NCBI RefSeq assembly: GCF_000143085.1
Contig: NC_014315.1
Coordinates: 2,138,001-2,202,000, forward strand
Reading direction: 5' to 3'
Origin: Nitrosococcus watsonii C-113
GTDB taxonomy: Bacteria; Pseudomonadota; Gammaproteobacteria; Nitrosococcales; Nitrosococcaceae
DNA length: 64,000 nucleotides
The notes beneath the pieces were generated by a model. It searched no databases. It worked only from the letters and a program-made list of their open reading frames with translations, and was not told where the DNA came from. The first letter of the stretch is position 1, and every line of letters starts with the position of its first letter. Position numbers and translations under genes: made by a program. Shown one piece after another: positions 1,415-19,600 of this stretch.

Positions 1415-1816
1415 ACTATCATATCAGGGTTAAACGCATGCAGGGATGCACTGCATAGTCCCCCTAGCCGAGGCATGAGCGCATCAAGCGCGAGGACCAA
1501 AGAAATCCAATAGAGCAGGGATTGAAGCCCTAACGAGAGTATTTGCTTCTGCTCGCCGGCATTTCTCTTTATCCAATGCGCGTTCCACCGCCTCAAGATA
1601 AGGGTAGAAAGCACCGCCAAAGCCGCGCTAATCGGCCCGGCAGACTGTGAATAATATCAAGCGATAATATTCGGTACTCGAGCCTCATCGAGCATTGCCA
1701 GTTCGCGTGAAAGGCGGGCAAGATATCCGATCACCTTTCAATGTCTATGCAACTAGGAAACCAGGCTCTTAGGAGTAGCCATCAGGCTGAATTACTTTTA
1801 TGCTGGTATATAGAGA
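1415..1816. other. Gene-free stretch; possible degraded fragment
   Basis: No intact gene. On the minus strand about 48 codons are open from roughly 1629 down to a TGA at 1484-1486 (ending ALLDFFGPRA). The composition is protein-like, but there is no start codon and I do not recognise a family, so it may be the tail of a deleted gene. The remainder shows nothing I can name. Confidence 0.2.
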
Positions 1817-4800
1817 TTATACTCGTAGCAACTCAATCACAACATTAGTTGACCATAGGTTACCATTCACAACTTGGACTCTTTCAGAAACTTCTGAAAA
1901 ACTTGCAAGCTGATAGTCCACGCTATCCTGGAAATCAAAATAATTTTCTGACGGCTTCTCACATCGTACTTGCCAATAGCCAACCCCTTGATCAAACCTG
2001 GCTTTTAAAGAGGCACCAGACTCGAAATCAATCGTAAGCTTTCTAGAGTGCGGAAGATCCCTTCCGGAGTCATAAATAAAAAGTTCAACTTCTGATCGCC
2101 ATTTTCGCCTAAACCAGGCCCCAGCAAAAGCTTCAAAGTCATCCCTCTCTTTCCAGTCATGGTGAGCACGGTTTCCATCTCGGTCTTTAGTCTTGAATAA
2201 CGTGGTGACCAAAATTTTGGCGTCTGGCATCAATTGGGTTTTCAAAGGTTCTAGCAACGAACCAAGCAGGGCAATTGAAGCTGGGCTTTGAATGTATCGA
2301 TCGCTGTAACAGATTTTGGTTATCTTGCTATTAGCCAGTACTTCTCTTGCTGAACCGTTGCTCTCATCTAGCAACTTCCAGAATCTGTTACCAAAACCCT
2401 CAAGACAGCCGTTTATCTCAGCGTTTATTTCCAGATCCTGTACGTCTTTCCCAGGCTGATTCATCCACTGATCGATGTTAATTTCCTTTAACCCTAATTG
2501 CTGCTCAGTCGTTGTCTCTACTACGAGCTTTTCCATCTGATGCCAACGATCGCCCGGTGTCGACGCTGAAGAAAGTCTGGAAGCAATAGTAACAACGGAA
2601 GATCCTTTAATAACCTGCGCGACCACAGGAGAATCCACGGGTAACCCGGAACAACAAATCCTTGCTCCGACAAGAGACAAGCGGCATAGGTCCTGTTGAA
2701 GTTCAGTGTCAGCAATATCTGATTCAAGAGCCAGATCAACTTTGATCTCGTCCTGCAGCAAATAATTGTAAATTGCCTTGCGGAAGGCCGGAGCCATCAA
2801 ATCCCAGTCTTCCATTGCACCTTTGAGCCAAAAAACTACACGCTCAGCCCCCTCATTAATGTATTTGCGCAAAACATCCTCGATTGAACCGGGGCAATAT
2901 CTCGCTCCAGGCAATAGTTGTTCTCCTTCAGCAAGACCAACATAGTTCACAAAATTGGAACCCAGCCAATCCAGAGCCGATTTACGATCCAGCAAGTCAT
3001 AGTCATGACGAGTCTGAGAATCAAGCAGACACTCGCTACAGGCCGTATCACAATAGCTACACTCAAGATGATCTGCCATTTTTCTCAACAGCTCTTCAAC
3101 ATAAACCGCTGCGCTGGAAGCAAAACCTGCACCGCCGCTGATCACATCATAGATCTGGATTATCCTAGCGGTCCGCCCATTCTCCAACTTTGTTGGGCGT
3201 GTGGCATACCCCAATTCCGAAGTTGCAATTCCCAAAATCCCTGCTAGCGCGGAACGCAGCGCAACAGCCAGAGTCATTGCAACCGATTTATCCCTTTCCG
3301 AAGCTGGAGACAGGTACTCTCCTGACTCAGGGTTCTTGAGCGTCAACTCAAAAATATCAGTTAAAGCAACCACGCCAATATTCACGTTGGGCGTAATCCC
3401 GCCTGCTCCCTGACAAGGCATGCGTTGATTATTATCATCCTTATCTTCCTTACGGGGCCTGGGTGGATAATGACTACCATTGGGTGTCAAACTCGGTGGG
3501 TACTCTCCTTCTTTCGTCATAGACTCAGCACGCCCACAGGCCAAACAGAGCGCATAGCCTTGCCCAAACTCCCCAGAGCTATGATGAAACACCTGACCAT
3601 TGACGCTGTATGCCATCTGTCCGAGTACTGAGTTTGGCAAAGAAACCTTGCCCGCATTGACAAACACCCAAGCCGCCTCAATCGGTATGAATTTTTGGTG
3701 GTTAATATTATTGGTGACGGGTTCGTAAGCGTCCGTTACAAAACCGGCAGGCTGAAGGACACGTTTGATATTTTTAGGATTTATGGGCGCCCGGCAGTCC
3801 TGGTGATTACACCGAAGCTCAGAATCCCTGATAGCACTTTCTTCATAACTAAACTCACCGCATCGATCGCACCGCCAGGCCCGATCCATTTTTTGGGCTT
3901 CATTTGAGTCAGCATTCAAATTATGCCAATGGAGAGAGACCCCAGCGGAACGAAATACCCGCCCATCTAGTACAATTTCAGCCCCTGGCGCATACTCTCT
4001 GACTGCAATCGCCAGGTTACGCGATGGAAGTCCTTTGTAACGGGATACACTATCTTCCCTATCTTTCCTATTTTTCTTGCTTTGCTTCTTCCCGCGCATG
4101 AAATCTTCTATCGTGAAATTATCGAAGCTAACAACATCCGTTGGGAAACCATACCCCGGTAAAAAGGTACGCGCCGCCAAATCACGAAGCAGATACTCGC
4201 CACAATGACGCTTTTTTTCCATTTCTATCCGCTTGGCATACGGACTATTTGACCTAGCATTACGTTCCCCGGACACCAAATATCGGTAATCGTCCAGCCA
4301 GCGTTTTTGCAAATCCTCTATCCTTTCCTTGGTATTTCTGCGCAATTGCCCAGGAGGTACGCCACCTAGGGCCGTTCCTTTGACTAGACCTTGAATTGCA
4401 TCATCGCAGCCCAATTGGGCTTTGCCGAGCCAAGTAATAAAACGATCACAAAAGGACTTCCCCGCCACACCATCAAAGAACCACTGGGTATCCAAAGCCG
4501 TTCGCTCTGCCTGGGTGTTTCCAACCTCTTCCCGCAGAAAGACAGACAGTAACAGGGAGTTCACATGCCGCTGCACTAATCTCGATGAATTCAAAGCGAT
4601 CCCAGGCGCTGGAATAACAGTTTCAAACGGCCAAGCCGGGTTAGCAAACACCTGTTGATCATGAGGATTCCCTTTACAAAGCGTGTATGCCAGCGCACGT
4701 GATTCTTGGCTTCTGCCTGCCCTGCCTGCACGCTGAAGATAGTTGGCTGGATGAGGTGGGACATTATTCATCACGACGGCAGAGATACCGCCAATATCCA

Positions 4801-7800
4801 CCCCCATCTCCATGGTAGTTGAGCAATTCAGGACATTGATCCGCCCCTTCCTAAAGTCCTCTTCATAGCCACCCAGACGTTCAGCGGACTGTTGGGCCGA
4901 ATGTTCAGCAGTACGATAGTAGAAGCCACCTTCAACGGTACGGTCATTGATGTCTGTCCACAGGTTCAAAGAGCGCAGATCGCGGACTTTTTCATCCTCT
5001 GCAATCTGAGCCCGAACTTTGGCCAGCCCTGGCTCATAGTCCTCCTGGGAACGATCAAAAAACCAGACTTCAGGTAATTCAATTTCATCGCACTTAAAGG
5101 CTTGACGCTCTCTGTCGGTCAATTCAGTAAAATTAATGTGGACAGGTAAATACGGAGTCAGGCCCTTGAAGGTGGTGTCCAATAATTTATAGGTTACTGG
5201 ACAGATATAAGCTTTGTCGATCAATGAGAAAGTGAGCTTATCCCTGCTCAGGAAGAAGCGGTTATCGTCGCTTTTCAGTATATTGTAGGTTCTCGTAAGC
5301 GCCTGCCACGTTTCTCTTAACCACGAGTTCACCAAATCAATATCATCTTTTTTAGACGGATCTAATCCGCTTCCTAATAGCAATAACTTGACCAGGCGTT
5401 GTCTGTGTGCACCGTTGCGAATAAGAGGCCAACGCTTAACACGCCTTTCATCGGGCTCTTTGGAATCAGGCTTACGCAAGGTCTTCGACCAGAAGCGATT
5501 GCCTATCCAGGATCGCCAGCTTTCGTCAAGCTGAATAAAACTATTGTCCCGAACATAAAAATCCAATGCTACCTTGAGGAAATATTTCCAATCATCCCGA
5601 GATAAGCCTTTTTCCTCCCAGTATTGAGGTGTATTTACGATTTTATCCAGACCTTGATATCCAACCTTAACTAACCCCTGGGTTTCAAGACTGTTCTGGC
5701 GCCTGGGACGTTTCATAAATTCCCGGAACAACAACATCTCAGCTAATTTAAAAGGACCATCATTCTCCCCAAAAATTTCTGGCTTTTGCTGCTTGTTATA
5801 AGCAAGAATCGCTTCTTTCAAATCTGTCCTGTGTTTAAGTTCATTTGCCACCTCGTTCCAGCTCAATGAAACAAGTGGTAAAGAAGCCCCCCCCTCAGCT
5901 AACGCCCTTGCCTTTTCCTCAAGCTGCCCAGCTGCTCCTTCCATTCCCATGGCTCTCAATTCATTGGCCTTAACAAACAGATCTTCCGGTTGGATACCTT
6001 CAGTGAGTTGATCCGGCTTAGATTGCGCTAGCTGATGCTGTCTCAAAATATCCACCACCAAGCCGCGCAAGCGACTTCTTTCAGCCTCCTGCTGCATCCT
6101 GATCGCCATCCTGGCGGTTCCTTGCCGGCTATCGGTGAAAGTAATTAACCTGCGACCACGGCCAGGTAGAGATTGGGGGCCGATAGCAGGCGTTCGATCA
6201 TCTTCGTCCTTGAAATCCGGACAATATTCCAAAACAGTGGAGACAGCATTGGCCACATAAAAGGGAGCTCCCAGTAAAGCACGCCGGAAAGGGAGATGCT
6301 GGTATCCCCTGAACTCACACCGACTACAGACAGCCTTAAAATCAGTATTCATGCTCAACAGGACACTGCTATCCGTAGCATGACTAAATTTCCCGGAAAG
6401 CTTATCGAATTTCATCGGAATATAGCCTGCCCGCTCACTCATAGACGGCGATAGAATGAGCGGCACTTTCATGGATTCCACGGGCTGACTTTGATCTTCT
6501 GGAATGTCTTCATCTCCATCTACTTCAGCCTGCAGCGAAAACTCGTCTCCCGCATACGTATCCCATTGGACCAGCTTACCGCTTTTATCCCTTGCTAGCA
6601 GATGGGGCTCGTTGCACTCCTGGCAGAAGCTCAGTTCAAAAACCGGGCTTCCACAATTACAGGTCTGACGCTGGATAACATACACATAACCCAATGGCCA
6701 GTTTTCCTGCAAAGGAGTGCCGATTTTGGCAGAACAATTCCCGTCAAAACATGCCCATAGACCATGGGACGTTCGTTGAAATAAATGTGCTCTTAACTTG
6801 AGGAAGGCAGGCTCTTTATCAGAGGGTCTAGTGCCAGAACAGACATCCAGCCAACGTAGAATTTCATGATAAGAGAATTGCCGAGGTATCTTTTCATTAA
6901 GCCGCGCTACCAGCTCTCTGAGCTTTAGTGGCTTAGGATTGGTCACCAGAATATCCCGCAGCGCCCGTGCTTCCGGCGAGTGGACAAGCGCTTCATAACG
7001 CTCAGGGTGAATACCGGATTGTTGTTCATTAGCAACCGGCATATTTTCCAGAGCATCGAGAGTGATTGATTTTCTTCTGCTTGAAGCCAGGGAGGGTATA
7101 ATCCGCTTCCCGCCAAATACGTCGATCTGATTAGTCGGCACACTCGATAATTCCGATAGAAATTTCTTTAGTGGTTCAGCCGCCTCATCGCCGGCAATGG
7201 TAGCCGAGGTAGCCACAAAACGAACGTCCTTGGATTCTACTCCAAAAACATGCATTACCCGACGTAACTGTAATGCCAACTCCGCCGCCTGGGAACCCAT
7301 ATAAGTGTGGGCTTCATCTAAGATAATCCAGCGCAGGGATTTTCCCGCTTTTGACTTTTCAATGATGGGCGCATCAATCTGACGCACCATCATGTATTCA
7401 AGCATAGTGCCATTGGTCACCAGAATTGGCGCTGGTTCCTCACACAATAACTCACGCGATAGAATTTCATTAGGCTGTCTTGCCTGTTTACTTCTTACTC
7501 TAGCTGCCAGTTCTGGAGTATTGCCGTTATAAAGGCAATAGCGGATTCCTGAACCAAACGAGTGGGTCCAGGCATTAAGGCGCTCTTGCTGGGAGTTAAT
7601 CAGGGCATTCAGAGGATAGAGAAACAAAGCTCGAACGCCAATTAGAGATTTATTTCCTTTTCTCTTGTACTCTTGATAAAGGTTTTCCAGAACGGGGACC
7701 ATAAAACACTCGGTTTTACCAGAACCCGTACCACTGGTGACGACCACGGATCGTTTCTGCTCTAGCAATGCTTTCCAACTTGCCAGTTGATGTACAAAAG

Positions 7801-8104
7801 GATGCCAGTTGGAGCCAAACCGGTAACGGCCGTTAGCCTTCCCATTCAGAGAGTCGACAATCTCTTTGCTGAGCAATGATTCCTTGGTAGCAAGCTCCCC
7901 CATGGTCATCTTTGATTCTTCCCAGCCAAAAGTCTGCTCAAACAGGGGAGAAGCCAGAAACGAACCCTCCTTACCGCATTCCGAGCGCATCAGATCGCCC
8001 AAATGTTCGCGCAGATTTGGATTTGTGATTCCTAAAATACTCAGAGTGGATTCTGCCGAACGGGAAATAGACTGCTCAACCAGGGAGGAAAAATATTTAA
8101 TCAT
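1817..8104 (-). CDS. druE: Giant DEAH helicase with DUF1998-like C-terminus, DruE-like (Druantia defence)
   Basis: 2095 residues. Superfamily 2 helicase motifs are plain: Walker A GTGSGKTE at about 125-132, DEAH at 263-266 (LDEAHTY), SAT at about 300-302, and the motif V/VI stretch around 1090-1130 (MGVDIGG, then QRAGRAGR). Two zinc-ribbon-like Cys clusters lie between motifs and later (CNCG...CQEC; CDRCG...C-x4-C). Near residues 1680-1700 a CSYCDTACSECLLD cluster followed by an LDR-x-AL-W segment is the signature of DUF1998. A single chain of about 2000 residues joining this helicase core and DUF1998 is the hallmark of DruE, the defining protein of Druantia anti-phage systems. Last gene of a three-frame operon, starting 5 bp after the upstream stop. 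In Druantia the helicase is required for phage resistance; the mechanism is not readable here. DISARM is unlikely because there these domains are on separate proteins. Confidence 0.8.
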   Translation of the reverse strand: MIKYFSSLVEQSISRSAESTLSILGITNPNLREHLGDLMRSECGKEGSFLASPLFEQTFGWEESKMTMGELATKESLLSKEIVDSLNGKANGRYRFGSNWHPFVHQLASWKALLEQKRSVVVTSGTGSGKTECFMVPVLENLYQEYKRKGNKSLIGVRALFLYPLNALINSQQERLNAWTHSFGSGIRYCLYNGNTPELAARVRSKQARQPNEILSRELLCEEPAPILVTNGTMLEYMMVRQIDAPIIEKSKAGKSLRWIILDEAHTYMGSQAAELALQLRRVMHVFGVESKDVRFVATSATIAGDEAAEPLKKFLSELSSVPTNQIDVFGGKRIIPSLASSRRKSITLDALENMPVANEQQSGIHPERYEALVHSPEARALRDILVTNPKPLKLRELVARLNEKIPRQFSYHEILRWLDVCSGTRPSDKEPAFLKLRAHLFQRTSHGLWACFDGNCSAKIGTPLQENWPLGYVYVIQRQTCNCGSPVFELSFCQECNEPHLLARDKSGKLVQWDTYAGDEFSLQAEVDGDEDIPEDQSQPVESMKVPLILSPSMSERAGYIPMKFDKLSGKFSHATDSSVLLSMNTDFKAVCSRCEFRGYQHLPFRRALLGAPFYVANAVSTVLEYCPDFKDEDDRTPAIGPQSLPGRGRRLITFTDSRQGTARMAIRMQQEAERSRLRGLVVDILRQHQLAQSKPDQLTEGIQPEDLFVKANELRAMGMEGAAGQLEEKARALAEGGASLPLVSLSWNEVANELKHRTDLKEAILAYNKQQKPEIFGENDGPFKLAEMLLFREFMKRPRRQNSLETQGLVKVGYQGLDKIVNTPQYWEEKGLSRDDWKYFLKVALDFYVRDNSFIQLDESWRSWIGNRFWSKTLRKPDSKEPDERRVKRWPLIRNGAHRQRLVKLLLLGSGLDPSKKDDIDLVNSWLRETWQALTRTYNILKSDDNRFFLSRDKLTFSLIDKAYICPVTYKLLDTTFKGLTPYLPVHINFTELTDRERQAFKCDEIELPEVWFFDRSQEDYEPGLAKVRAQIAEDEKVRDLRSLNLWTDINDRTVEGGFYYRTAEHSAQQSAERLGGYEEDFRKGRINVLNCSTTMEMGVDIGGISAVVMNNVPPHPANYLQRAGRAGRSQESRALAYTLCKGNPHDQQVFANPAWPFETVIPAPGIALNSSRLVQRHVNSLLLSVFLREEVGNTQAERTALDTQWFFDGVAGKSFCDRFITWLGKAQLGCDDAIQGLVKGTALGGVPPGQLRRNTKERIEDLQKRWLDDYRYLVSGERNARSNSPYAKRIEMEKKRHCGEYLLRDLAARTFLPGYGFPTDVVSFDNFTIEDFMRGKKQSKKNRKDREDSVSRYKGLPSRNLAIAVREYAPGAEIVLDGRVFRSAGVSLHWHNLNADSNEAQKMDRAWRCDRCGEFSYEESAIRDSELRCNHQDCRAPINPKNIKRVLQPAGFVTDAYEPVTNNINHQKFIPIEAAWVFVNAGKVSLPNSVLGQMAYSVNGQVFHHSSGEFGQGYALCLACGRAESMTKEGEYPPSLTPNGSHYPPRPRKEDKDDNNQRMPCQGAGGITPNVNIGVVALTDIFELTLKNPESGEYLSPASERDKSVAMTLAVALRSALAGILGIATSELGYATRPTKLENGRTARIIQIYDVISGGAGFASSAAVYVEELLRKMADHLECSYCDTACSECLLDSQTRHDYDLLDRKSALDWLGSNFVNYVGLAEGEQLLPGARYCPGSIEDVLRKYINEGAERVVFWLKGAMEDWDLMAPAFRKAIYNYLLQDEIKVDLALESDIADTELQQDLCRLSLVGARICCSGLPVDSPVVAQVIKGSSVVTIASRLSSASTPGDRWHQMEKLVVETTTEQQLGLKEINIDQWMNQPGKDVQDLEINAEINGCLEGFGNRFWKLLDESNGSAREVLANSKITKICYSDRYIQSPASIALLGSLLEPLKTQLMPDAKILVTTLFKTKDRDGNRAHHDWKERDDFEAFAGAWFRRKWRSEVELFIYDSGRDLPHSRKLTIDFESGASLKARFDQGVGYWQVRCEKPSENYFDFQDSVDYQLASFSEVSERVQVVNGNLWSTNVVIELLRV

Positions 8105-8109
8105 AAATT

Positions 8110-10119
8110 TTAATTACCTCTTTCAGTCGAGGCATAACTCAACAGACAATATTGATACACTGGTTCAAACCAGTGTAAATAGAAATCCCGTATCTGCCTC
8201 AGGAAGAAAATAACTTCAGGACTATCACAAAAAAAATCTTCAAATTGGGTTCTTCCTATTGCAACAGAAGCTGCAAATGCAGGCAGATAAACGACAGCGT
8301 TGCGGTAATTCATTTCGGGGACGATAGAGATGGGGCAATTAGTTTGCTGTTTAAACCAATCTTTCAGCGGGTTACCGCCATACTCTGGCCAGCGCTCATC
8401 ACTTCGGACTCTAATAAGATCCTGATACCAGATTTTTATTCCGTCTATCATCGATGAAAAAGCCATGGGGGGTGGTAACTGGCTGCGAGAGAGCCAAGAC
8501 TGAACATCACCGCCGTAGACTGGAAAAACATTCGCCAATTGTTCATACATCGACTCAAGCAAATCAGGCAAACATTCGGTAAGTATACCTTTTGCAGACA
8601 AAAATTCTCCCATGCGTTCTCCAGCTAGCTTCAGTGAATGAAGGGAGAAGAATTCCCAAAATATTGGAAATTCCTTCTCCATCCGCACCAGAAAAGTAGG
8701 ATTTACATCAAATTTTAAGATAGCCATGGCCAGAGCATCTGGATGCCTGATCAATGCGCGCCAAACTTCGAAAGTTGCCAGAGGCAAGTAACCATAATGA
8801 TCATAAAGAGTCTTCAAAAACTGCCAGCCGCTGTGAGACGGCTCGTATGCCATGGCGTCTAAAATTGAAGTAAATGCATTCATACCTGCATTTTTATCAA
8901 AGGCTAGGGTTGCCTTCTGCAAGCTTTTTATTTCGGCTAAATCATCGGGGCGAACCACGCCACCGGGAAATAATATCGGACGAAATGAAATTGCGGAATT
9001 CTTCTCAGGGACAATCAACCAAGGGCCGTTCTTATCAAGAAAATATGGAAACTCAAATTCTCCGGTTGGTACACCTTCACTTAAGCGAGGGCGCAGCTCC
9101 GCTGGTTTACGCTCCGGCTCACTCAATAGCATAAGGGTAGGCTTGGGGTATTCACCAGCTCTCTCCAATAGATTCGAGATAAACAAAATATGGCGGCCAT
9201 AATCAATGGACATTTTCTTGGAGTACCTCAAAATACGGTATAAATATTCTTGACCACCACCACAAATCCTAAGCTCAACCGTCTGATCAATACCATCCTG
9301 CAGCGATAGCAGATTTTCAACTTCTTTTTTAATATTGAACAAGCTCACCTCCAATGGGCAATCAATTGCTGTGTAGGACCACGAGTAATGAGCCTGGGCT
9401 GTATTATTACCCAAGAGACGCAATTCTAGTTCATATTTAATAGGGCAACCTTCTTGGGCAAATAAGTACACGCGGCTTCCCAATAAACCTGAAACAGACA
9501 AAGTACGGGATAGAAAATTCTGATTTTTATCAAACGCCAGCGCTCCACTAACGGGGAATGGTAGTTTGATATGAACAGGATCTTTCGCTAGATTTGAAGT
9601 AAGAGCAATAGTGACATGAGCTGGCGGAATATCTTTCTTTTTAAGCAGTAATTCCGTACAGTCATCATGGTATACTCGGCGACAAGAAACTGATTTATCC
9701 AATATATGATACTGGTAGGAAAAGATGGTATAAAAGAGGATACTACCCTGATTAGGTTGCTCTCCTTTCTTAAGTTTTATTTTCATATCTACCGGCAAAA
9801 TGCCAACCCGTTTGCGCAGCAATGTTTCACCCTGGTTATTGCGAACCGAAAGATAATGATTGCCTAACTGCTGCTGCACTGAAAATTCGCTAAGAGGCTT
9901 TCCGGATAAATATACATTAGCTCCCTGTGCGATCAAACTCGGATCAGATTCTTCTGACCAATCAATCTCCGGCACTCCGTAAAAAGCTATTGCAGGGTAA
10001 CTTTGCCACTCAACGGTTTTACCCTTTAACGTCGGCATAATATTGGCGGAGGAAAATACTCCGGTCTTGATGCGATGAGTTTCATCAGCACCAACAATAA
10101 CGGTTACTGCTCCTGTCAC
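8110..10119 (-). CDS. Large uncharacterised protein upstream of the DruE-like helicase; probable C-terminal part of a DruH/YjiT-like protein
   Basis: 669 residues from a GTG at 10119; AAGG lies eight bases upstream, so independent initiation is possible. No enzyme motif, signal peptide or membrane segment is evident. The N-terminal half is beta-rich (MTGAVTVIVG...) and the C-terminal half looks helical with many aromatic and Leu residues. The stop is 5 bp before the helicase start, so the two genes are almost certainly translationally coupled. It is in exactly the same frame as the 422-residue gene upstream: only the TAA at 10162-10164 and 14 sense codons separate that gene's last residue from this GTG. 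That suggests either one ancestral DruH/YjiT-like (STY4851-type) protein split by a nonsense codon, or two cooperating subunits. Function is unknown beyond presumed participation in Druantia defence. Confidence 0.6.
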   Translation of the reverse strand: MTGAVTVIVGADETHRIKTGVFSSANIMPTLKGKTVEWQSYPAIAFYGVPEIDWSEESDPSLIAQGANVYLSGKPLSEFSVQQQLGNHYLSVRNNQGETLLRKRVGILPVDMKIKLKKGEQPNQGSILFYTIFSYQYHILDKSVSCRRVYHDDCTELLLKKKDIPPAHVTIALTSNLAKDPVHIKLPFPVSGALAFDKNQNFLSRTLSVSGLLGSRVYLFAQEGCPIKYELELRLLGNNTAQAHYSWSYTAIDCPLEVSLFNIKKEVENLLSLQDGIDQTVELRICGGGQEYLYRILRYSKKMSIDYGRHILFISNLLERAGEYPKPTLMLLSEPERKPAELRPRLSEGVPTGEFEFPYFLDKNGPWLIVPEKNSAISFRPILFPGGVVRPDDLAEIKSLQKATLAFDKNAGMNAFTSILDAMAYEPSHSGWQFLKTLYDHYGYLPLATFEVWRALIRHPDALAMAILKFDVNPTFLVRMEKEFPIFWEFFSLHSLKLAGERMGEFLSAKGILTECLPDLLESMYEQLANVFPVYGGDVQSWLSRSQLPPPMAFSSMIDGIKIWYQDLIRVRSDERWPEYGGNPLKDWFKQQTNCPISIVPEMNYRNAVVYLPAFAASVAIGRTQFEDFFCDSPEVIFFLRQIRDFYLHWFEPVYQYCLLSYASTERGN

Positions 10120-10161
10120 CCGAGCCGCCTTACATCCAGCAACTAATTCATTTTCATAAAT

Positions 10162-11430
10162 TTATCCGCTTTCCACTTCTATGCGGGATCGATCGGGTAG
10201 CAGTAATAGCACCTCATCAGCCTTCGAGTTGAAGCTGGCTTGCCCACACCACAGCCAGCGTCCATCTCTTAACTCAAAACCTACCGGAACCTCATTAATT
10301 CCGACTGAGCCGTTATCAATGGGCCGCTGTGCAAGCACCAAGCCACCATATATGGCAACCAAAAAGAGTTCTCGTCCTGGTTCTCTGCGTTTGCACCTAA
10401 TAAGCCGCTGACGCGGCCTTACTTTGGCTGAGCGATGCTCGAGAACTGCATAGCCAGCGCCTAGGCTAGCTATCTGATCGCCGCCTTCGCATATCCCCAA
10501 CTCAAAACGGCATGATGCAGGTTCAAACGAAAGCTGGAAGATAATTTCAGCTGGCAAAGAAATCTCTACCTGAAGGCAATCAGGTCTCCGCTCCAGCCAA
10601 AAGTGAGAACAACGCACACTATTATCAGTACGGTGCTGCGCACGCATTCCCTTGTCAGTTGCGGAACGAAGCAGGCCATTCAGCAGCTCACTGCCGGTAG
10701 TATCATCAAGAGGGATAGGAAAACTGTCACGCCACCTTGGATTTTTATCATCAAGGTAATTTACCGGCCCTTCTTTAGTATCCAAAGCATAGAGCCGAAC
10801 AAGCGAAACCAGCTGATCCGCCATGGTGGCTATCAGATCTACAGAGGTATCCTCCGAGAATACTTGAGGAAGATTTGAACGCTTAATAAGCGTCTCGGTA
10901 AGTTGCCGGGTAGTGCAAACTGAGGATTCGGTGCAATCATATTCCTTTAATATTCGGGAAAATAATGATTGGAAGCGGCTACCTTCTTGCTCGAGAACCC
11001 TGAATGGAAGCCCGCCTTCGCTGAATACAGATCCAAGGAAGTTTCTGCGCTCAGATTCATAGTAACGAAGCGGGCGATTCCAATAACTTTCAAGCCCGCG
11101 TGGCACTACATTAGCCAGCTCTGAAGGAGCCAAGCTGAATTTCAAGGAACACCAAACCCGCTCCCAACTCCAACCAAAACTGCTTTCATATTCCCTTCGG
11201 TACCACTCGGCACAAAAAAGGGTAAAACAAGCATTTGCGTCTATATCCTTAAAAAACCGGTTTGATTTTCCGATCGCTGAAAGGGCTTTTTTCAGGTCTA
11301 TATATTCCTCACTACTGACTTGATACTCATACAAAGTCCTATGATCCGGGAAGCGCAGACCTCGCCGTTGAAGGAAAGAGCGCAGCCATAATGATAGTGT
11401 AGATATAGATAGCTGATCCGATATCCCCAT
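10162..11430 (-). CDS. First gene of the Druantia-like operon; N-terminal part of a DruH/YjiT-like protein
   Basis: 422 residues. The N-terminus (about 12-45: SLWLRSFLQRRGLRFPD then LYEYQVSSEEY) and the middle (RPLRYYESERRNFLGS, then EGGLPFRVL, about 120-148) resemble the start of the YjiT/STY4851 family as I remember it. That family is encoded directly upstream of a DruE-type helicase, as in the E. coli yjiT-yjiV remnants of the immigration control region. Full-length members are much longer than 422 residues, so this frame alone looks like the N-terminal portion. The continuing part is the in-phase 669-residue frame downstream. No transmembrane segments or catalytic motifs are seen. This is the first gene of the operon, so the promoter should lie in the AT-rich DNA just upstream of 11430. 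Confidence 0.55.
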   Translation of the reverse strand: MGISDQLSISTLSLWLRSFLQRRGLRFPDHRTLYEYQVSSEEYIDLKKALSAIGKSNRFFKDIDANACFTLFCAEWYRREYESSFGWSWERVWCSLKFSLAPSELANVVPRGLESYWNRPLRYYESERRNFLGSVFSEGGLPFRVLEQEGSRFQSLFSRILKEYDCTESSVCTTRQLTETLIKRSNLPQVFSEDTSVDLIATMADQLVSLVRLYALDTKEGPVNYLDDKNPRWRDSFPIPLDDTTGSELLNGLLRSATDKGMRAQHRTDNSVRCSHFWLERRPDCLQVEISLPAEIIFQLSFEPASCRFELGICEGGDQIASLGAGYAVLEHRSAKVRPRQRLIRCKRREPGRELFLVAIYGGLVLAQRPIDNGSVGINEVPVGFELRDGRWLWCGQASFNSKADEVLLLLPDRSRIEVESG

Positions 11431-12258
11431 AAATACCCTCTACTCACCGGTTTAGAAGATTCTGGTTAATTGTTCTGATGTATATTGCTACTCAAATAAG
11501 TGTATTTTTCCATCCTGTTAAAGTAATTATCCTCTTGATATTTATGTTTTTTAACCAGATCATACGGCGATCGCTGCCACGAATCCAGCGACTATATGTC
11601 TATTTTTTTTTGTGCATTACGATCGCTACCCGCAGACCAGCATTATTGATATATAATCGGCAAATCCGCGCGATTCTTAATCGCAACCTGTTCGATCAAC
11701 GAATACAGTCGCCACTGTCTGCTCATTACATAAACCATCTCCTTTTATGTAATTTTGCATCGCATCATTTCAATTTATAGTGGTTCTCCCTGGGCTTGAG
11801 GTCGGCCAGACATAAGATAAGTAGCGATAGGCAGGGATTGTTTGGAGTGAGAACGAAAATTAAGAGAGAATCTTTTGCCCCCACAAATATAAGCGATCAG
11901 GGCAGCAGTCGAATTGGTAATGCTGCGATGGCGGCTATGCTCGATTTAGTTGAACAAGAAAAGAAGCTATCGAATCAGAGTGATGAGTCGGAGGCTTTAC
12001 TCAAAAAAAGTCAGAAATAAGCGCTTTCCAGACAACTGTGAGATATGATAATGATGAATCAACATTGCCCGAGGTGGGACGAAAAACTAAAAGTTCACTG
12101 CGGTCATTAAATACAGGATAGCACTTAAAATTATATACTTTGTTCATTGAAATTATGCCACACCAGGAGATTTTTACGCCCTTTGTGGATGTAAAAAATT
12201 CGGCAATTATAATAAACGCCTGTGAGAGCAGCATCGATAAAAGCAAGTCCTGCCGCTT
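11431..12258. other. AT-rich gene-free region upstream of the Druantia-like operon
   Basis: About 0.8 kb with no gene I can support. Short ORFs exist, such as a 74-codon frame at 11796-12020 on the plus strand from TTG, but none has a good ribosome binding site or recognisable protein character. The part nearest 11430 is AT-rich and is the likely promoter region for the defence operon. The part near 12259 adjoins a truncated hydrolase gene, so some of this DNA may be decayed coding sequence. Confidence 0.4.
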
Positions 12259-12928
12259 TTACGTCGCCTCATATACCAAATATCGCTCTGCCCATGCAAC
12301 CAATACATTCGCTACAAAAATTGCATCTTCTCTTTGAGATAGTAAGTGATCAGCATTATCCAACGATACAAAACTTTTAGGGTGTTTTGCAGCTTCGAAA
12401 ATATGCCGGGCATGCTCAATGCTCACCGTATTATCTTTGGGGCCATGAAAAATCATTAGCGCTTTTCGAAGCGACTTAACTTTCTGAAGTAAGCGATACT
12501 CGCTCATGGGCTGGATCGCTAGGAGCATTAATCGTAGCCACGGCCAAGGTTTCAGGAATTTCTTCCGCTGCTGCCAATACCGCCGCCCCGCCTAAACTAC
12601 GTCCAATAAGTAGCTGGGGAGCCTGATATTGCGCCCTCATAAAGGATACTGCTTGCACCAGATCCGCAATGTTGGAAGAGAAATTAGTATTGCTAAAATC
12701 CCCCCCGCTATTGCCCAGTCCAGTAAAATCAAATCTCAAGACTGCTATTCCCCGCTGCGCCAAGGTATTACTAATACGTGTCACCGCGAAAAAATCTTTA
12801 GAGCAGGTAAAACAACGGGCAAATAATGCATAGCCTAAGGGTATCTTGTCTGACCGCTCTAATCGGGCTGCCAATGGATCGCCCCGATAGCCAGGAAAGC
12901 TTACACGTTCTGCTCGCACGGTGGACAT
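12259..12928 (-). pseudogene. Alpha/beta hydrolase broken by an internal deletion and frameshift
   Basis: Two frames make up one serine hydrolase. The first (12928 down to 12476) starts with ATG and carries the core fold: an [13 protein letters not shown] segment and the nucleophile elbow GRSLGG with Ser at about residue 111. It continues to INAPSDPAH and then runs out of frame. The second frame (from about 12507 to 12259) carries the rest: KSLRKALMIFHGP-x-D (acid residue region) and DNADHLL (catalytic His). Between PSDPAH and SEYRLLQ, where relatives of this group have a few dozen residues, almost nothing is left, so the break looks like a deletion near 12500-12510 and not a single-base error. 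Many relatives carry an OsmC domain after the hydrolase; here the gene ends soon after the His, so that domain is absent. Probably non-functional. Divergent from the rhomboid gene, which is also broken. Confidence 0.75.
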
Positions 12929-13022
12929 TTCTTTCCCCTTTTATATCGACCAGGAATCTGTAGCTATCGTTGCTGAAAATGCCATAAAGTCAAATATTAA
13001 TGTAAGAGAAGGAAACAGAGGA

Positions 13023-13701
13023 ATGATCCCCGTCAGTGATAACTATCCTGTTCAGCGCATCCCTATTGTTAATTGGATTCTGATTGGAACCTGCGTGCTT
13101 GTCTTCTTCTGGCAGTTAAGCCTGCCACGGGAGGGATTTCAAGCTTCAGTTATTCTATTTGGACTGATTCCCAAGGCTTTGATGGATGCGCCCTTGGGCC
13201 ATCCTCAATTGCTGATTTCTCCCGTACTCAGCCTGTTTACCTCCATGTTTTTGTACAGTGGCTTCCTGCACCTGTTGGATAATATGCTCTATCTTCATGT
13301 ATTTGGCAATAACGTAGAAGACTCCATGGGGCATGGCCGCTTCATCGTTTTTTATTTACTCTGCGGCGTGGCTGCGGCGCTGGCGCAGGCTTTTATAGCC
13401 CCCGACTTCCACGATCCCCATGGTGGGGGCTAGCGGCGCCATATCCGGCATCCTCGACGCTTATCTGCTCTTGCACCCCTTCGCTCAGATCAAACTGCTG
13501 GTACCCTATTTCATCCTCTTTTTCGTTTGGGTGCCCGTCTGGTTCATGCTAGGTCTCTGGTTCTTGTTTCAGCTCTTGCAATCGGTAGCGACTCCGGGGG
13601 ATGAGGGCAGCATAGCCTTCGCCGCCCATACTGGCGGGTTCATGGCCGGCGTGCTCCTGTTGCCTGTATTTAAACGCTCCGAAGTCAGCCTACTCCGTTA
13701 G
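13023..13701 (+). pseudogene. Rhomboid-family intramembrane serine protease with a +1 frameshift
   Basis: Starts at ATG 13023 with AAGGA nine bases upstream; an ORF start at 12921 would add a non-conserved leader. Several hydrophobic segments follow, with HLLDNMLYLHVFG and a GHGRF-x-FYLLCG segment typical of this rhomboid subfamily. The first frame dies at a TAG near 13432. Shifting by one base near 13405-13415 restores the expected IPMVGASGAISG, which holds the catalytic Ser of GASG; AHTGGF with the catalytic His follows. The extra base is probably a T in the GACTTCCACG stretch. The residue after SGIL is Asp where Gly is usual, suggesting relaxed selection and making a pure sequencing error less certain. 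Rhomboids cleave transmembrane substrates; here the protein would be truncated before the active site unless the frame is corrected. Confidence 0.8.
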
Positions 13702-13718
13702 CGTTTCACGCTTTTTTT
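13700..13718 (+). terminator. Rho-independent terminator of the rhomboid gene
   Basis: A short hairpin, AGCGT-TTC-ACGCT, overlaps the rhomboid stop codon and runs directly into a run of seven T. It lies on the correct strand and between convergent genes. The stem is only five base pairs, so strength is uncertain. Confidence 0.5.
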
Positions 13719-13824
13719 CTAACCAAGTTAAAGGGGAATTCAACCTTCTTGGGATTTATCCGCTTACCCATGCAAGCATATTTAGCCTTATCATTTCCCC
13801 AACATCGATGCTTATATGCCACAT

Positions 13825-14757
13825 TTATCGTTGTTGAAATATCTCCTCTATCCTTCCAAGCGCGCCTATGGTGGCCTCGGAGGTTGCTACTGGCTGCGGG
13901 GGAACCCGCTTACTAAGAGCACTTGTAGAAGCTGCCCTAGAAGGATCTATCTTTCGCCAGATTTGTATTTCATTAAAATCTATTTCCCCGACATCGTTAA
14001 CATGCAACGATGTGGTTATCCTATTATCTCTCTCTATTAAAATGAGGGCGCTGCCCACATTAGGAGGTTGTGTTACTACTAGGACAGATCCCTCATCAAC
14101 AAAAGTGCCGGATAAATTAACTATAAGAGGATCTTCACCAGAAATAAAAATCGTAACCTCCTGCGAGATATTATTTTCGCTTATGCGCATGGCACCGGTA
14201 ACAGCTATGTTTGGGTTTTCACTGTCAAAAACGCTTTGGTCGGAAAACTGAATAGAAAGCCTCTCTAGCGTATAAGTCCCCTCAAGGCTGGAGGGATTTT
14301 CCGCACAATAAGATTCTTTTAGCATGGTAAGGCGGGTGAGATCGATAGCGCCAGAACCAAAACCGAGCATGGAGTTATAAACAGCCTGTCCTTTATTACA
14401 GGAAGAGAAGCTAAATTCAACGGTACCCCATTCCGTCATCACCACTCCATTGGGATCAAAATCAGAACCAAAGACCCCTCCTTCCGTCACAAAGGCAGGT
14501 ATCACTACTTTATCATTCACGATATTACCAGCGCCAAACAGCCACATCTGATTCTGATTAGAATCATAGCTAAACCAGGAGAACACCATTCGATCATTCT
14601 CAAGCACTTCGATGAAAAATCCCTCGCCACTACGCTCCGGGTCAAACCATTCACCACTATGTCCCGATTGAATGGGAATCTCCGCGTAAGCAATGGTAGG
14701 TATGAAGAAAAAAATTAGTGCAAAAGATGTAAATATGCGGACTAATCTCTTGTTCAT
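13825..14757 (-). CDS. Secreted protein with an N-terminal SGEWFDP-RSGEGF repeat-type motif
   Basis: 310 residues with a signal peptide (residues 1 to about 25, ending AYA-EIP). Just after cleavage comes SGHSGEWFDPERSGEGF, then an aromatic-rich FSWFSYDSN-x-NQMWLFG segment. This module recurs in many exported proteins of gammaproteobacteria, often as tandem repeats, and has no assigned biochemical function that I know. Two Cys pairs could form disulfides (SSCNKG and SYCAEN regions). The remainder is beta-rich with no catalytic motif; the C-terminal 40 residues are low-complexity and rich in Ser, Ala and Pro. Likely periplasmic or extracellular. Convergent with the broken rhomboid gene and alone in its transcription unit. 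Confidence 0.6.
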   Translation of the reverse strand: MNKRLVRIFTSFALIFFFIPTIAYAEIPIQSGHSGEWFDPERSGEGFFIEVLENDRMVFSWFSYDSNQNQMWLFGAGNIVNDKVVIPAFVTEGGVFGSDFDPNGVVMTEWGTVEFSFSSCNKGQAVYNSMLGFGSGAIDLTRLTMLKESYCAENPSSLEGTYTLERLSIQFSDQSVFDSENPNIAVTGAMRISENNISQEVTIFISGEDPLIVNLSGTFVDEGSVLVVTQPPNVGSALILIERDNRITTSLHVNDVGEIDFNEIQIWRKIDPSRAASTSALSKRVPPQPVATSEATIGALGRIEEIFQQR

Positions 14758-15182
14758 GACTCACCTCATTTAGCCTAATTTCTAGGCCAGAAACAGAAAA
14801 AAGCTTATGTTCAAAAATATCAAAGCCGTTGCTTATTTATAATAATACTTTCCTTGCTTATCACTGTCCGTGACATATTACCCCGATAACCGTGAAGTAC
14901 TGGTGAGTCGAAATAATTATTATTGACGAAGGGAGATTTCTGGAGAGGTATTGGATAATTCTTTATTAATGCGGATTTTTAAGCTAGCCCTGCTAATCCT
15001 GCCAGAGTTATTGGGGGCGCTAAATGGCCTATGCCCACAGAGTTCATGAACAACCGTTCATTCAACGGACACAACATCGTAATTACATCAGTTCTGGATA
15101 ACTAGCCGGGCATACCCAGGAGAATAATCTGCGGGTTGTGGTCAGGTAAAGCCGAGGGCTGGCCAAATGACTCTCTTGTAAG
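14758..15182. other. Gene-free stretch upstream of the secreted protein
   Basis: About 425 bp with no supported gene. The first part should hold the promoter of the minus-strand secreted protein ending at 14757. The last bases run into a palindromic repeat. No family could be recognised in any frame. Confidence 0.4.
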
Positions 15183-15216
15183 GTAGGGCGGGATGCGCTA
15201 TGCTTTCCCGCCCTAC
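15183..15216. repeat. Palindromic intergenic repeat, copy 1
   Basis: Inverted repeat GTAGGGCGGGA / TCCCGCCCTAC around a 12-base centre containing TGCGCTATGC. A near-identical copy lies at 16080-16113, and the bases just outside also match (TAAG before, TGCT after). This is the form of REP-like elements scattered in intergenic DNA of many gammaproteobacteria. It could form a strong hairpin. With copy 2 it brackets the two small genes at 15298-15767. Confidence 0.75.
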
Positions 15217-15297
15217 GTGCTGACCTATCGCCCAAGCTTAGTGGTACCGATAAAGGAGTCGCCACTGAAATGGCTTGTTGGGCAAATGCCACTTTAC

Positions 15298-15528
15298 TTA
15301 GCTTCGCATCAAGAGCGCCTCTCGCGCTTTCTCAGGCAAATCCAAAAAAACAAAGAAGGATGCGGGGTAAAGGTAGTCTTCCATCGATTCATCCACTATC
15401 CGCAGATAATCTTCTTGGGCTGCGATATTATCAGGAAGCACTGGGTACACCTTCCCCTTCTCCAGGTCATCACACTCTCTGCTCTCAATACAAAGCGCAA
15501 AGCGGGTATTCTGTCGTGGCTGTACCAT
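15298..15528 (-). CDS. Small conserved protein of unknown function (second of a pair)
   Basis: 76 residues when started at the ATG at 15528 (MVQPRQNTRFALCIES...). An upstream extension to 15594 would overlap the preceding gene and adds nothing conserved-looking. The sequence has the feel of a widespread family of about 75-residue proteins: FALCIES, then LEKGKVYPVLPD, then IRV/IRI-VDESMEDYLYP and a hydrophobic end. These usually follow a small partner gene. Predicted soluble and acidic, with no catalytic motif. It begins 5 bp after the stop of the upstream 77-residue gene, so the two are co-translated. A toxin-antitoxin role is possible but unproven. Confidence 0.55.
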   Translation of the reverse strand: MVQPRQNTRFALCIESRECDDLEKGKVYPVLPDNIAAQEDYLRIVDESMEDYLYPASFFVFLDLPEKAREALLMRS

Positions 15529-15533
15529 AGCGT

Positions 15534-15767
15534 TTAGTCCAATAATTGCTTGATCTTCATCTTTCTCTTGCCGATACCGTGAGCTTCGTACCAATGCACC
15601 TCTGCCATGCGGATACTACCATTTTCCAGCTTCACCGCCGCAATGCCTTTGAGCTTGCGCCATCGACCAGGACCATACTGCTGGCGTAGACGCATGATAT
15701 CGCGGATGCGGCTTCCCACCGCGATGACTTCCACCTGCTCTATTTTCCCTATGACCTCGAAATGCAT
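15534..15767 (-). CDS. Small conserved protein of unknown function (first of a pair)
   Basis: 77 residues, basic and soluble. Recognisable elements are IEQVEVIAVGSRIRD, then LRQQYGPGRWRKLKG, then the tail HWYEAHGIGKRKMKIKQLLD, a pattern seen in short conserved hypothetical proteins across bacteria. The composition (Arg/Lys-rich, compact beta-strand alternation) would suit a small nucleic-acid-binding or antitoxin-like protein, but I have no direct evidence of activity. It is followed after 5 bp by the 76-residue gene, and the pair is enclosed by two copies of the same palindromic repeat, which may mark a mobile or hotspot unit. Confidence 0.55.
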   Translation of the reverse strand: MHFEVIGKIEQVEVIAVGSRIRDIMRLRQQYGPGRWRKLKGIAAVKLENGSIRMAEVHWYEAHGIGKRKMKIKQLLD

Positions 15768-16079
15768 CTGCTGTTCTCATACCAGTATCTATCGTCCCCA
15801 TGCCGTCCAACGGGATGCAAGCCGGGGGGTGAAACGCCCGACTTGCAAGAAATGAGCGCACAACAATGATTCTACTGTTTCCCTGTCGTTAGTAGCTTTT
15901 ATTTCTTTAAAATCCGGTAAAGCCAAAATTGCAAACTCCGAAGATAGACCTAAATCCTGGTTTTTCAATTAATAGGGATATCCCTCCTTCCAATTACCAC
16001 TGCATATGAACCTATCCATACAAACAATTGTCTTCCCCCCTTCTGTATTTATTTCTTTATAACATTCTGTCAAAGTAAG
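15768..16079. other. Gene-free stretch between the small pair and repeat copy 2
   Basis: About 310 bp with no gene that I can support. The part next to 15767 should contain the promoter of the small gene pair. Reading frames over the gene pair extend a little into it but look like shadows. The rest is AT-rich and leads into the second palindromic repeat. Confidence 0.4.
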
Positions 16080-16113
16080 GTAAGGCGGGATGCGCTCCGC
16101 TTTCCCGCCCTAC
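16080..16113. repeat. Palindromic intergenic repeat, copy 2
   Basis: GTAAGGCGGGA / TCCCGCCCTAC around a 12-base centre containing TGCGCTCCGC. It differs from copy 1 at one arm base and in the middle of the loop; both loops keep GCT...GC symmetry. That compensated loop difference (ATG versus CCG at the tip) is typical of mobile or structurally constrained palindromes. It lies in the gap downstream of the lipoprotein gene at 16159. Confidence 0.75.
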
Positions 16114-16158
16114 ATGCTATTCGTTTACCAACTTTCTGCTTACTGTCTCAAAAAGCCC

Positions 16159-16551
16159 CTATGGGACACGATACCAATCTTTTGGACAAGTATCTGAATT
16201 AGGATCATAGAATTCAAACTGATATTTCCTTCCATCCACTATAAAGGTAATAACGCAAGTGACGCTGTTGGTGGTTTTCTCCGAAAAAATCACATTGATT
16301 TGAGCTATTCGTAGAGTTTTAAATTCATCATCAAATATCGCGCATCTCGACGAATTATCTTCTCCTACCGATTCCACTGCTGAAACGCAAGGGGTCACTT
16401 CTAATGGCTCGCCAGTTTTAGGATCAACTGGAACAATTTCACCCTCTTTCACCTGGATACCGACAATCGGTTCGGGGGCTTCTTCAAGTTTAGGTTTACA
16501 ACCCACAAGCAGAACCGATAAGCACATAAAAAATAATAGGATAATTCTCAT
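16159..16551 (-). CDS. Small putative lipoprotein
   Basis: 130 residues. The signal peptide (MRIILLFFMCLSVLLVGC) ends in a lipobox LVGC, with Cys18 as the predicted lipid-anchored residue, so the protein is probably attached to the inner or outer membrane facing the periplasm. After the lipobox follow a Pro/Glu-rich spacer (KPKLEEAPEPIVG) and a compact domain with four Cys (TPC, SRC, VTC, DTC) that may form two disulfides. I do not recognise the domain. Monocistronic on the minus strand, about 85 bp downstream of the large FecR-TPR gene's stop. Confidence 0.6.
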   Translation of the reverse strand: MRIILLFFMCLSVLLVGCKPKLEEAPEPIVGIQVKEGEIVPVDPKTGEPLEVTPCVSAVESVGEDNSSRCAIFDDEFKTLRIAQINVIFSEKTTNSVTCVITFIVDGRKYQFEFYDPNSDTCPKDWYRVP

Positions 16552-16635
16552 GGCGTTATTCCTTTTAGGTGTTATTTTAGTAATGAAAGCATATCTTTAT
16601 ATATAATTTATTAAAAATCGCCTCCTTTTTTAAAG

Positions 16636-19600
16636 CTAAAAAGCCAAAGTAAAGCGCGCAAAGATTAATCTTTCGGCCCGAAAGAGAGGAACGGTAGGCT
16701 CGCCACTTTGAAAATTAAGATCTTGAAAACGGAAACTATTGTTCAGCAGATTAAAGGCTTCGATACTCACGATTCCCCAACGCTTTGGCAAACGGTAACC
16801 AAGGCTCGCATCCATTACCCAAAAATCTTCTATCCCACTATTTTTAGTGTCAGGGAAATCTGCATCTTGATAAACATAACTACCGCCTACGCGGGCGATT
16901 AGACCCTTGGGATGATAATAATTGAGCCGCAGAGGCATACGATGGGTAGTGAGCACCTTAAACTCACCGGAGGATAGGTTTTGGTTTTTCCTGTTAATGT
17001 ATTCCAAAAAATATTCAGCGCTAAACGCCAGCTGATCGGTGGGCGTCCAGTAGAGGTAGGCGCGGTGAAACTGTTCATCCCACGCTTCGCCTTCTCTGCT
17101 CCGTACCTTATTTTTATCAGTGTTTATTTTGCTTTCTTCCACCTGTCGCCAAGAGATTTCCACACCAGCGGATAGCTGACTAGAGAAAGCATGGTCCAAA
17201 CCTACACCATAGCGCAGAGTTTTGGCACCGTTAAGATCATCGAAGAACTGGTTGAAGCCGGCAACCTGGGTCGGCTCGATGCTTGGGCTAGCAGCAAAGG
17301 GACGCTTGACGGTGCGAAACACCGCCGTCCTCAGAGTCGTGGCAGGGGAGAGATTCCAAAGGAGCCCAAATTTAGGATTCAACCGATTGTGCTCTAACAG
17401 GGGATCTTGTTCCTGATAGTGATCAAAGCTCAGCCCCAGGATCGCCCTGAGCGTAGGCGTAAGCGCAATGTTAGCGTAAGCATAGGCATTGGCGTAGTTG
17501 CTATCAGGGTGGGCGATAGTAGTAGTGTCTCCAGGGGGGAAAAAAGGACTATTAAATTGCAGTGTAGTAGTACTAGTACTATCTTGAGTAAAGTAGCCAA
17601 ATCCTCCCGTCAGGCTAGCGTTGTCACCATGAAACAAATACTGGAGTTCCCCACTGTAATGCTGGGTGTCTATAGTCGAGACGAGTTCAGTCTGAGGCCC
17701 AACGTCTTCGAAACGGCTATCCCCATCCCAGTAGATGAACGAGCCTAGTAAATTATGCTCAGAATTGACATTATGACGAAACCCAAGCCGGGCCGAATTA
17801 CGGCGAGTCCGCCGCCGATCATCCTTAAATTCCTCCGGGTCAAGATCAAAGCGGGAGCGCAAATCCCCACTGTCGATTTCCTGGCGGCGCAACTCAATTT
17901 GGGCACTAGTCTTGACACCCAAGGCCACCTGAGCGAAAGCATTATAGATATTATGCTCCAGATCGTTGTTCTTCCGGAAACCGTCGCTGCCAAAGTGAAA
18001 TTGTCCAAGGCTATAGGAAAACTGATTCCATATACCCGCCTGGGTCACCTCGTCACCGAAGGTGCTATTGCTGCCAACTACGGCCGAAGTCTGCAAGGCA
18101 AACCGATTGCGAGTAAATAAGGGATTGAATTCATTAAAGGCTGAAGCAGCCGGGCCGCTACCTGGCAGCAGCAATAATTGCCCTTCAGCCAGTTGGGGCT
18201 GGACTGGAGTCATATTCAAGGGTTGCAAAAGCTGGGAACGCAGCAACTCACTCACCCGGGCAGTCTCATGCCGCGGCAATGCCGCGTAGTTATCCGCCAG
18301 CAGCCGATGGGCGGAGTAGTTGCCGGGATCGGTATTGACTGATTTCCAGCCCTCCAATAGGCCCCGCTGCTGAAAGCCCAGATCATGGTAAATTCGCCCC
18401 AGGCTGGCGCTCCTGGCAGCCAAGTCCTGGTCCATAAGGAGGCGTGAGCGATACACCGCCCGGTTATCATTCAACGCAATAGCCTTTTGCATGTCATGCA
18501 AGGCTTCCACCGGCCGGTTAGTGGTTTGCTTGCGGATGGCGTCATAAAACCACGGTGTAGGATCGTTGGGATCGAGCTTTTTCGCCATCGCTAACTCTGT
18601 TGCCGCCGCGCCCCCCCGTTTTTGGTCGTAATAGGCTTTGCCGAGATAACTTCTAATCAGCGAATTATTGGGGTCCAGGCTGGCGGCAATTTCGATTTCC
18701 TGAGTGCCCGCCTTGAGATCGCCCTGGCGGATTTTGGCCAGCCCTAACCCAAGGCGTGATAGGGGATCGGCCGGGTCCAGTTCAATGGCCCGCTTAAAAG
18801 CCCCCTTGGCTTCCTCAATATCAATGGCCGTCAGATCAGCAAAGCCTTGCACCGTTTGGGTCCGGGCTAAATCAGGATCGAGGGCCACCGCCTGTTGGGC
18901 GGCTTTGGCCGCTTTCTCCGAATTGCCCAGGGAGAGCTGTAATTCAGCGACTCTCGCCCAGGCCAAGGGCGCACCAGGGAAAAGTTCAATGGCCTGTTGG
19001 GCATGCGCTAAGGCCCGTTCGATATTAAACATTCCTTGATAGACATAGGACAGGGCGATTTGAGGGATAGGTGAACGGGGATCGAGCTTTGCCGCCTGCT
19101 GGGCCAAGCTGAGGGCTTTCTCTTTTTGATTTTGTACCAGGGCGATGATGGCTTGCAGAGCATAAGCGGTTCCCTGGTCGGGATCAAGCTGCAAAGCATG
19201 CTGAATTTTGGAGCGGGCTTCATCGACGCGCCCCACTACCAGCAGCAAGGCTGCCTGCAAAGTGAAATAGCTAGCCTCTCGCACTTCAATCGGAACCTGT
19301 TCCAAGCGGGCCAGGGCAGCAGGCAAATCCCCGGCCCGGTAATCATGCAACGCCGCATGAATCTCGCGGGCTGCTGGATCTGTGGGATAGACGCTGGAAC
19401 GCAGGTCAATAAGCGGCGGGTAATAAAGGGCCCATTGGACGGCTTCCCGGGGCTGGACGACAAGCCGTCGCCGCGGTGCCTGACCAGCCTCAGCCACCGC
19501 TGCCTCGCCGCTAGTAATGGTGAGGCGGCCAGCAGGATTGTGGAATAGAACCCGCCCCTCGAAGACCCAGAGCAAGGCTTGCTCCGGCTCTACCCGGACG

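Follow-up and report, generated by a model that had tools for sequence, protein, structure and literature searches.

Two open reading frames on the minus strand of the Nitrosococcus watsonii C-113 chromosome raise the question of whether a druH gene of a type III Druantia locus has been broken by a mutation, is still translated into a whole protein in spite of a stop codon, or has become a genuine two-part gene. In the window, by which we mean the whole 64,000-nucleotide stretch that was analyzed, translation of positions 11430 to 8110 on the minus strand gives 1,107 codons with a single internal stop, the TAA at positions 10162 to 10164 (codon 423); both pieces and the codons between them share one frame. 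The front piece (10165 to 11430) has an ATG start and 422 codons, and the back piece (8110 to 10119) has 669 codons if it is started at the GTG at 10119 to 10117. From the stop to this GTG run 14 sense codons (IYENELVAGCKAAR; 10120 to 10161) that align to the DruH proteins of relatives. The original prediction had described exactly this arrangement of frames, stop, intervening codons, and GTG.

That prediction had also taken the two frames to be adjacent parts of one DruH/YjiT protein of about 1,100 residues, which the profile searches bear out. The front piece matches positions 3 to 416 of the DruH model PDLC00049 (E value, 5e-163) and the back piece positions 430 to 1098 (E value, 3e-237); for the NCBIfam model NF038336 (STY4851/ECs_5259, YjiT family), the matched ranges are 1 to 404 and 416 to 1090, with scores of 390 and 550 bits against a cutoff of 150 bits. 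The 13 columns of PDLC00049 left unmatched equal the 13 codons between the matched pieces (5 sense codons, the stop, and 7 sense codons), so that there is no insertion or deletion, and the locus holds one gene with one stop. This gene is single copy in the genome (3,373,286 bp in three contigs, the chromosome being one contig of 3,328,570 bp). Its neighbor druE (1817 to 8104, minus strand) starts at position 8104, 5 bp past the end of druH, and encodes a helicase partner of 2,095 amino acids with DEAD, Helicase_C, and MZB Pfam domains; the frame is intact, with 0 internal stops, and the DruE3 model PDLC00037 scores 2,554 bits against it over positions 3 to 2091. With a DruH of the YjiT family and a type III DruE directly downstream, the locus has the gene pair and gene order of the type III Druantia (DruH-DruE) of Escherichia coli ECOR19 and Mycolicibacterium smegmatis, and it resembles the characterized systems in its full-length match to the DruE3 model and in a DruH model that is covered end to end, here by two pieces. 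It differs in that DruH of ECOR19 and M. smegmatis is one polypeptide of about 1,100 residues (1,119 in the 9TUD chain), whereas the window's druH, interrupted by its in-frame stop, does not encode a single uninterrupted protein.

The stop is likewise peculiar to the window when relatives are considered. Scanning a species collection with a profile turned up 27 loci that belong to the same subfamily, every one with a single DruH ORF before DruE; these DruH ORFs have 1,097 to 1,179 codons (stop to stop), and a DruE-sized ORF comes next in all 27 loci (1,739 codons in the case of L055). Among 369 genomes from the class and 398 from the phylum, 20 other genomes had a match to PDLC00049, a set that overlaps the 27-locus scan at least once (L003 and L045, whose contigs agree in length and range); most of these copies are open across the whole match, and several are partial or distant. 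None of the DruH copies from the subfamily, class, or phylum searches has a stop at the position of the TAA, which falls where the sequences of relatives vary and are prone to gaps. No DruH was found in the phage and viral-contig searches, and a first genome scan using the back half alone returned no relative. Because codon 423 is a TAA here and all 27 subfamily loci have one ORF, we file the locus, as far as its sequence can tell, as a degraded rather than a working member of type III Druantia. The subfamily, class, and phylum searches also dismiss a conserved two-gene form of DruH. Homologues encoded by a pair of genes, each with conserved termini of its own, were sought and not found, nor was any sign that the two frames are not adjacent in one family. 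The model PDLC00042 (687 amino acids, C-terminal only) was considered as a stand-alone C-terminal DruH and rejected, as it equals residues 410 to 1096 of the E. coli type of DruH; no conserved stand-alone C-terminal DruH gene was found, just broken copies in E. coli.

Damaged copies of druH do occur elsewhere. In genome G481 (L019/L025), DruH likewise falls into two ORFs in succession, of 528 and 598 codons, that precede a DruE start, but that split is a frameshift near residue 500 rather than an in-frame stop at codon 423 and is an independent event; in G430, a remnant of 306 residues is left. The E. coli gene yjiT (NF038336, STY4851/ECs_5259) belongs to the same family, and in K-12 it is a pseudogene, truncated and continuing into helicase remnants. 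The K-12 break, beside broken helicase genes, is a large deletion that joined the front of druH to these remnants, whereas in the window DruE is intact and one codon of druH is damaged. In two other E. coli strains, IS3 elements interrupt druH at different places, and 218 of 627 matching E. coli genomes hold at least 80% of druH in one place, in a collection so rich in K-12 derivatives that this count is not a population rate. A further E. coli sequence (NZ_LR883000.1; L126, positions 3010 to 7851) has a truncated DruH annotated as a single 8.3-kb coding sequence that extends into the helicase, next to an IS629 remnant, and is apparently a DruH-DruE fusion.

The original prediction had proposed alignment to full-length homologues, and both pieces do fit one DruH model end to end. 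It had also proposed comparison with close strains, which was less productive: druH is absent from all three other genomes in the genus. Identity to L054, the nearest relative, is 53% in the front part and 48% in the back part, so no close allele is at hand to date the mutation. One genome of the genus, G002, lacks the whole druH-druE segment of about 10.1 kb (approximately 1571 to 11690); there the counterparts of the two flanks (window positions to 1570 and 11691 onward) are separated by about 93 bp, which makes an empty site, and the segment may be either an acquired cassette or one that was lost in G002. The next two genes beyond the druH start are damaged as well. An alpha/beta hydrolase gene (12277 to 12928, minus strand) has lost about 110 bp to a deletion near 12492 to 12504 and is intact in G001 and G003, with different damage of its own in G002, and a rhomboid-protease gene (13024 to 13702, plus strand) has a frameshift near 13400 to 13430 and is intact in G001, G002, and G003. 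With two neighboring genes broken, loss of function is not unusual at this locus. The same genome carries, on the 39,105-bp contig C2, a type I Druantia cluster that looks intact (L132, positions 6611 to 17426). It consists of DruA1, a 955-amino-acid protein to which PADLOC gave no hit at 1e-10, DruD1, and DruE1 (1,849 amino acids), and a dGTPase-like gene lies upstream of it. The presence of this additional Druantia might have eased selection for the type III system on the chromosome.

The position of the cut within the protein could be placed with the solved 9TUD DruH chain (1,119 amino acids), since it bears residues F69, E75, R78/R79, H85, K87, W88, and H103/R104 at the numbers used in PMC13192584. 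Codon 423 corresponds to about residues 420 to 426 of 9TUD, and Ig-like domain 1 comprises residues 257 to 464 (PMC13192584). By these coordinates the stop interrupts a predicted beta-strand of Ig-like domain 1 rather than falling at a domain border: in an AF2 model of L054 (mean pLDDT, 80.7; pTM, 0.53), the stop aligns with residue 418, in strand 411 to 425, and the valine of the restart with residue 433, in strand 428 to 440. A Foldseek search with this model gave low-TM matches only, mostly to tandem Ig-like proteins. The front piece contains the beginning of Ig-like domain 1 and the N-terminal surface (about residues 63 to 137 in the numbering tied to 9TUD and PMC13192584) that mutants of E. 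coli DruH have shown to be needed (PMC13192584); the back piece contains the end of Ig-like domain 1, Ig-like domains 2 and 3, and the C-terminal domain. The cut separates the N-terminal patch from the C-terminal nucleotide/dimer site. Point mutants of mycobacterial DruH at D240, R536, E842, R864/865, and E1096/1099, sites that flank the cut, lose defense (PMC13316683), and antiphage activity was shown to need both DruH and DruE in another Druantia III member (PMC13316683).

Our results make it probable that in this type III Druantia locus on the chromosome druH bears a private and probably recent nonsense mutation and that the system is most likely dead or strongly impaired; a nonsense mutation splitting DruH is the best supported of the three alternatives in the original prediction, and it is most likely an ordinary loss of function. 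Translation would end at codon 423, inside Ig-like domain 1, yielding a 422-residue product without the end of this domain, Ig-like domains 2 and 3, and the C-terminal domain, which bears the nucleotide/dimer site. From these missing parts we infer that DruH, the proposed phage sensor with nuclease activity, and hence the Druantia III response, would most likely have lost all or much of their function, while an intact DruE would still be encoded. In M. smegmatis, DruH alone is toxic and DruE neutralizes it (PMC13316683), so loss of DruH with DruE retained should be harmless. Two observations run counter to the nonsense reading. One is residue retention: in alignment columns with 95% or more identity among the other sequences, 76 of 79 residues before the stop and 99 of 102 after it are retained in the window, compared with mean retentions among the other sequences of 0.975 before and 0.963 after the stop position. 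Equal retention on both sides suggests that the part after the stop was under selection until recently or still is. The back piece would thus look as it should in a working split, with no extra loss of conserved residues, and such even retention appears to fit a young null allele and a working split alike. The other observation is the good Shine-Dalgarno/GTG pair 42 nt past the stop.

This pair underlies the only rival explanation with positive evidence of its own, a possible one that finds no comparative support: ribosomes ending at the TAA would restart at the GTG, and the fragments would reassemble into a working split DruH. We regard this as unlikely. A TAAGG resembling a Shine-Dalgarno sequence (10128 to 10132, minus strand) lies 8 nt upstream of the GTG, and its duplex with the anti-Shine-Dalgarno sequence (ACCUCCUUA) has an energy of -7.6 kcal/mol, compared with -6.6 kcal/mol at the druH start and -7.1 kcal/mol at the druE start. 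An equally good Shine-Dalgarno sequence precedes 6 of the 177 internal in-frame starts in druH and druE, and such a start falls within 15 codons of 90 of 3,049 codons, a chance frequency of about 3% that comes from a single post hoc test. The argument in the original prediction that the AAGG favors reinitiation therefore holds for the site itself, which rivals the real starts, but a good restart site establishes only that the back piece could be translated, and not that the two fragments are functional. The retention of near-invariant residues in the back piece and the poor conservation of the stretch in which the stop sits would also suit a split protein. Against it, a comparable start is present near the site in at most about 4 of 29 sequences, as opposed to 20 of 29 at the true start, which dismisses a conserved internal start; the split form occurs in 0 of the 27 subfamily loci; and the restart codon and the stop each lie inside one of the predicted strands of the L054 model, so that the Ig-like domain would need completion in trans. 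A working split specific to this lineage, in which reinitiation at the GTG is coupled to the stop at codon 423 and the two polypeptides complete the Ig-like domain in trans, seems less likely still. The two-subunit form suggested in the original prediction is not supported by these data, as a split at this place occurs in none of the relatives, the cut interrupts a folded Ig-like domain rather than falling at a domain border, and the second start is unconserved. At another place, alignment column 1033, 13 of 29 DruH sequences have an interior in-frame start with a good Shine-Dalgarno sequence, probably a by-product of conserved protein sequence.

It is improbable that the stop is a sequencing or assembly error and that the real druH is intact. 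All but one codon resembles a functional gene, and the small frameshift in the neighboring rhomboid-protease gene could be an error too; however, the chromosome is a single contig, the break in the hydrolase gene is a deletion of about 110 bp and not a typical error, and substitution errors in closed genomes are uncommon. Read-through or recoding of the stop to yield full-length DruH, also raised in the original prediction, is very improbable: the frame is open on either side, but the tRNA search dismisses both suppression (none of the 43 tRNA genes has anticodon UUA, CUA, or UCA) and selenocysteine insertion (no tRNA-Sec match above the cutoff, and TAA is not the selenocysteine codon), local RNA folding at the stop is only mildly stable (z score, -1.6), and UAA followed by A is not known as a leaky context.

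If the fragments did work together, the locus would be a natural split of a proposed phage sensor, in which the N-terminal activation surface and the C-terminal part could be studied apart. Under the nonsense mutation that we favor, annotation that goes by the genes present would list for this organism a Druantia III system that is probably nonfunctional.
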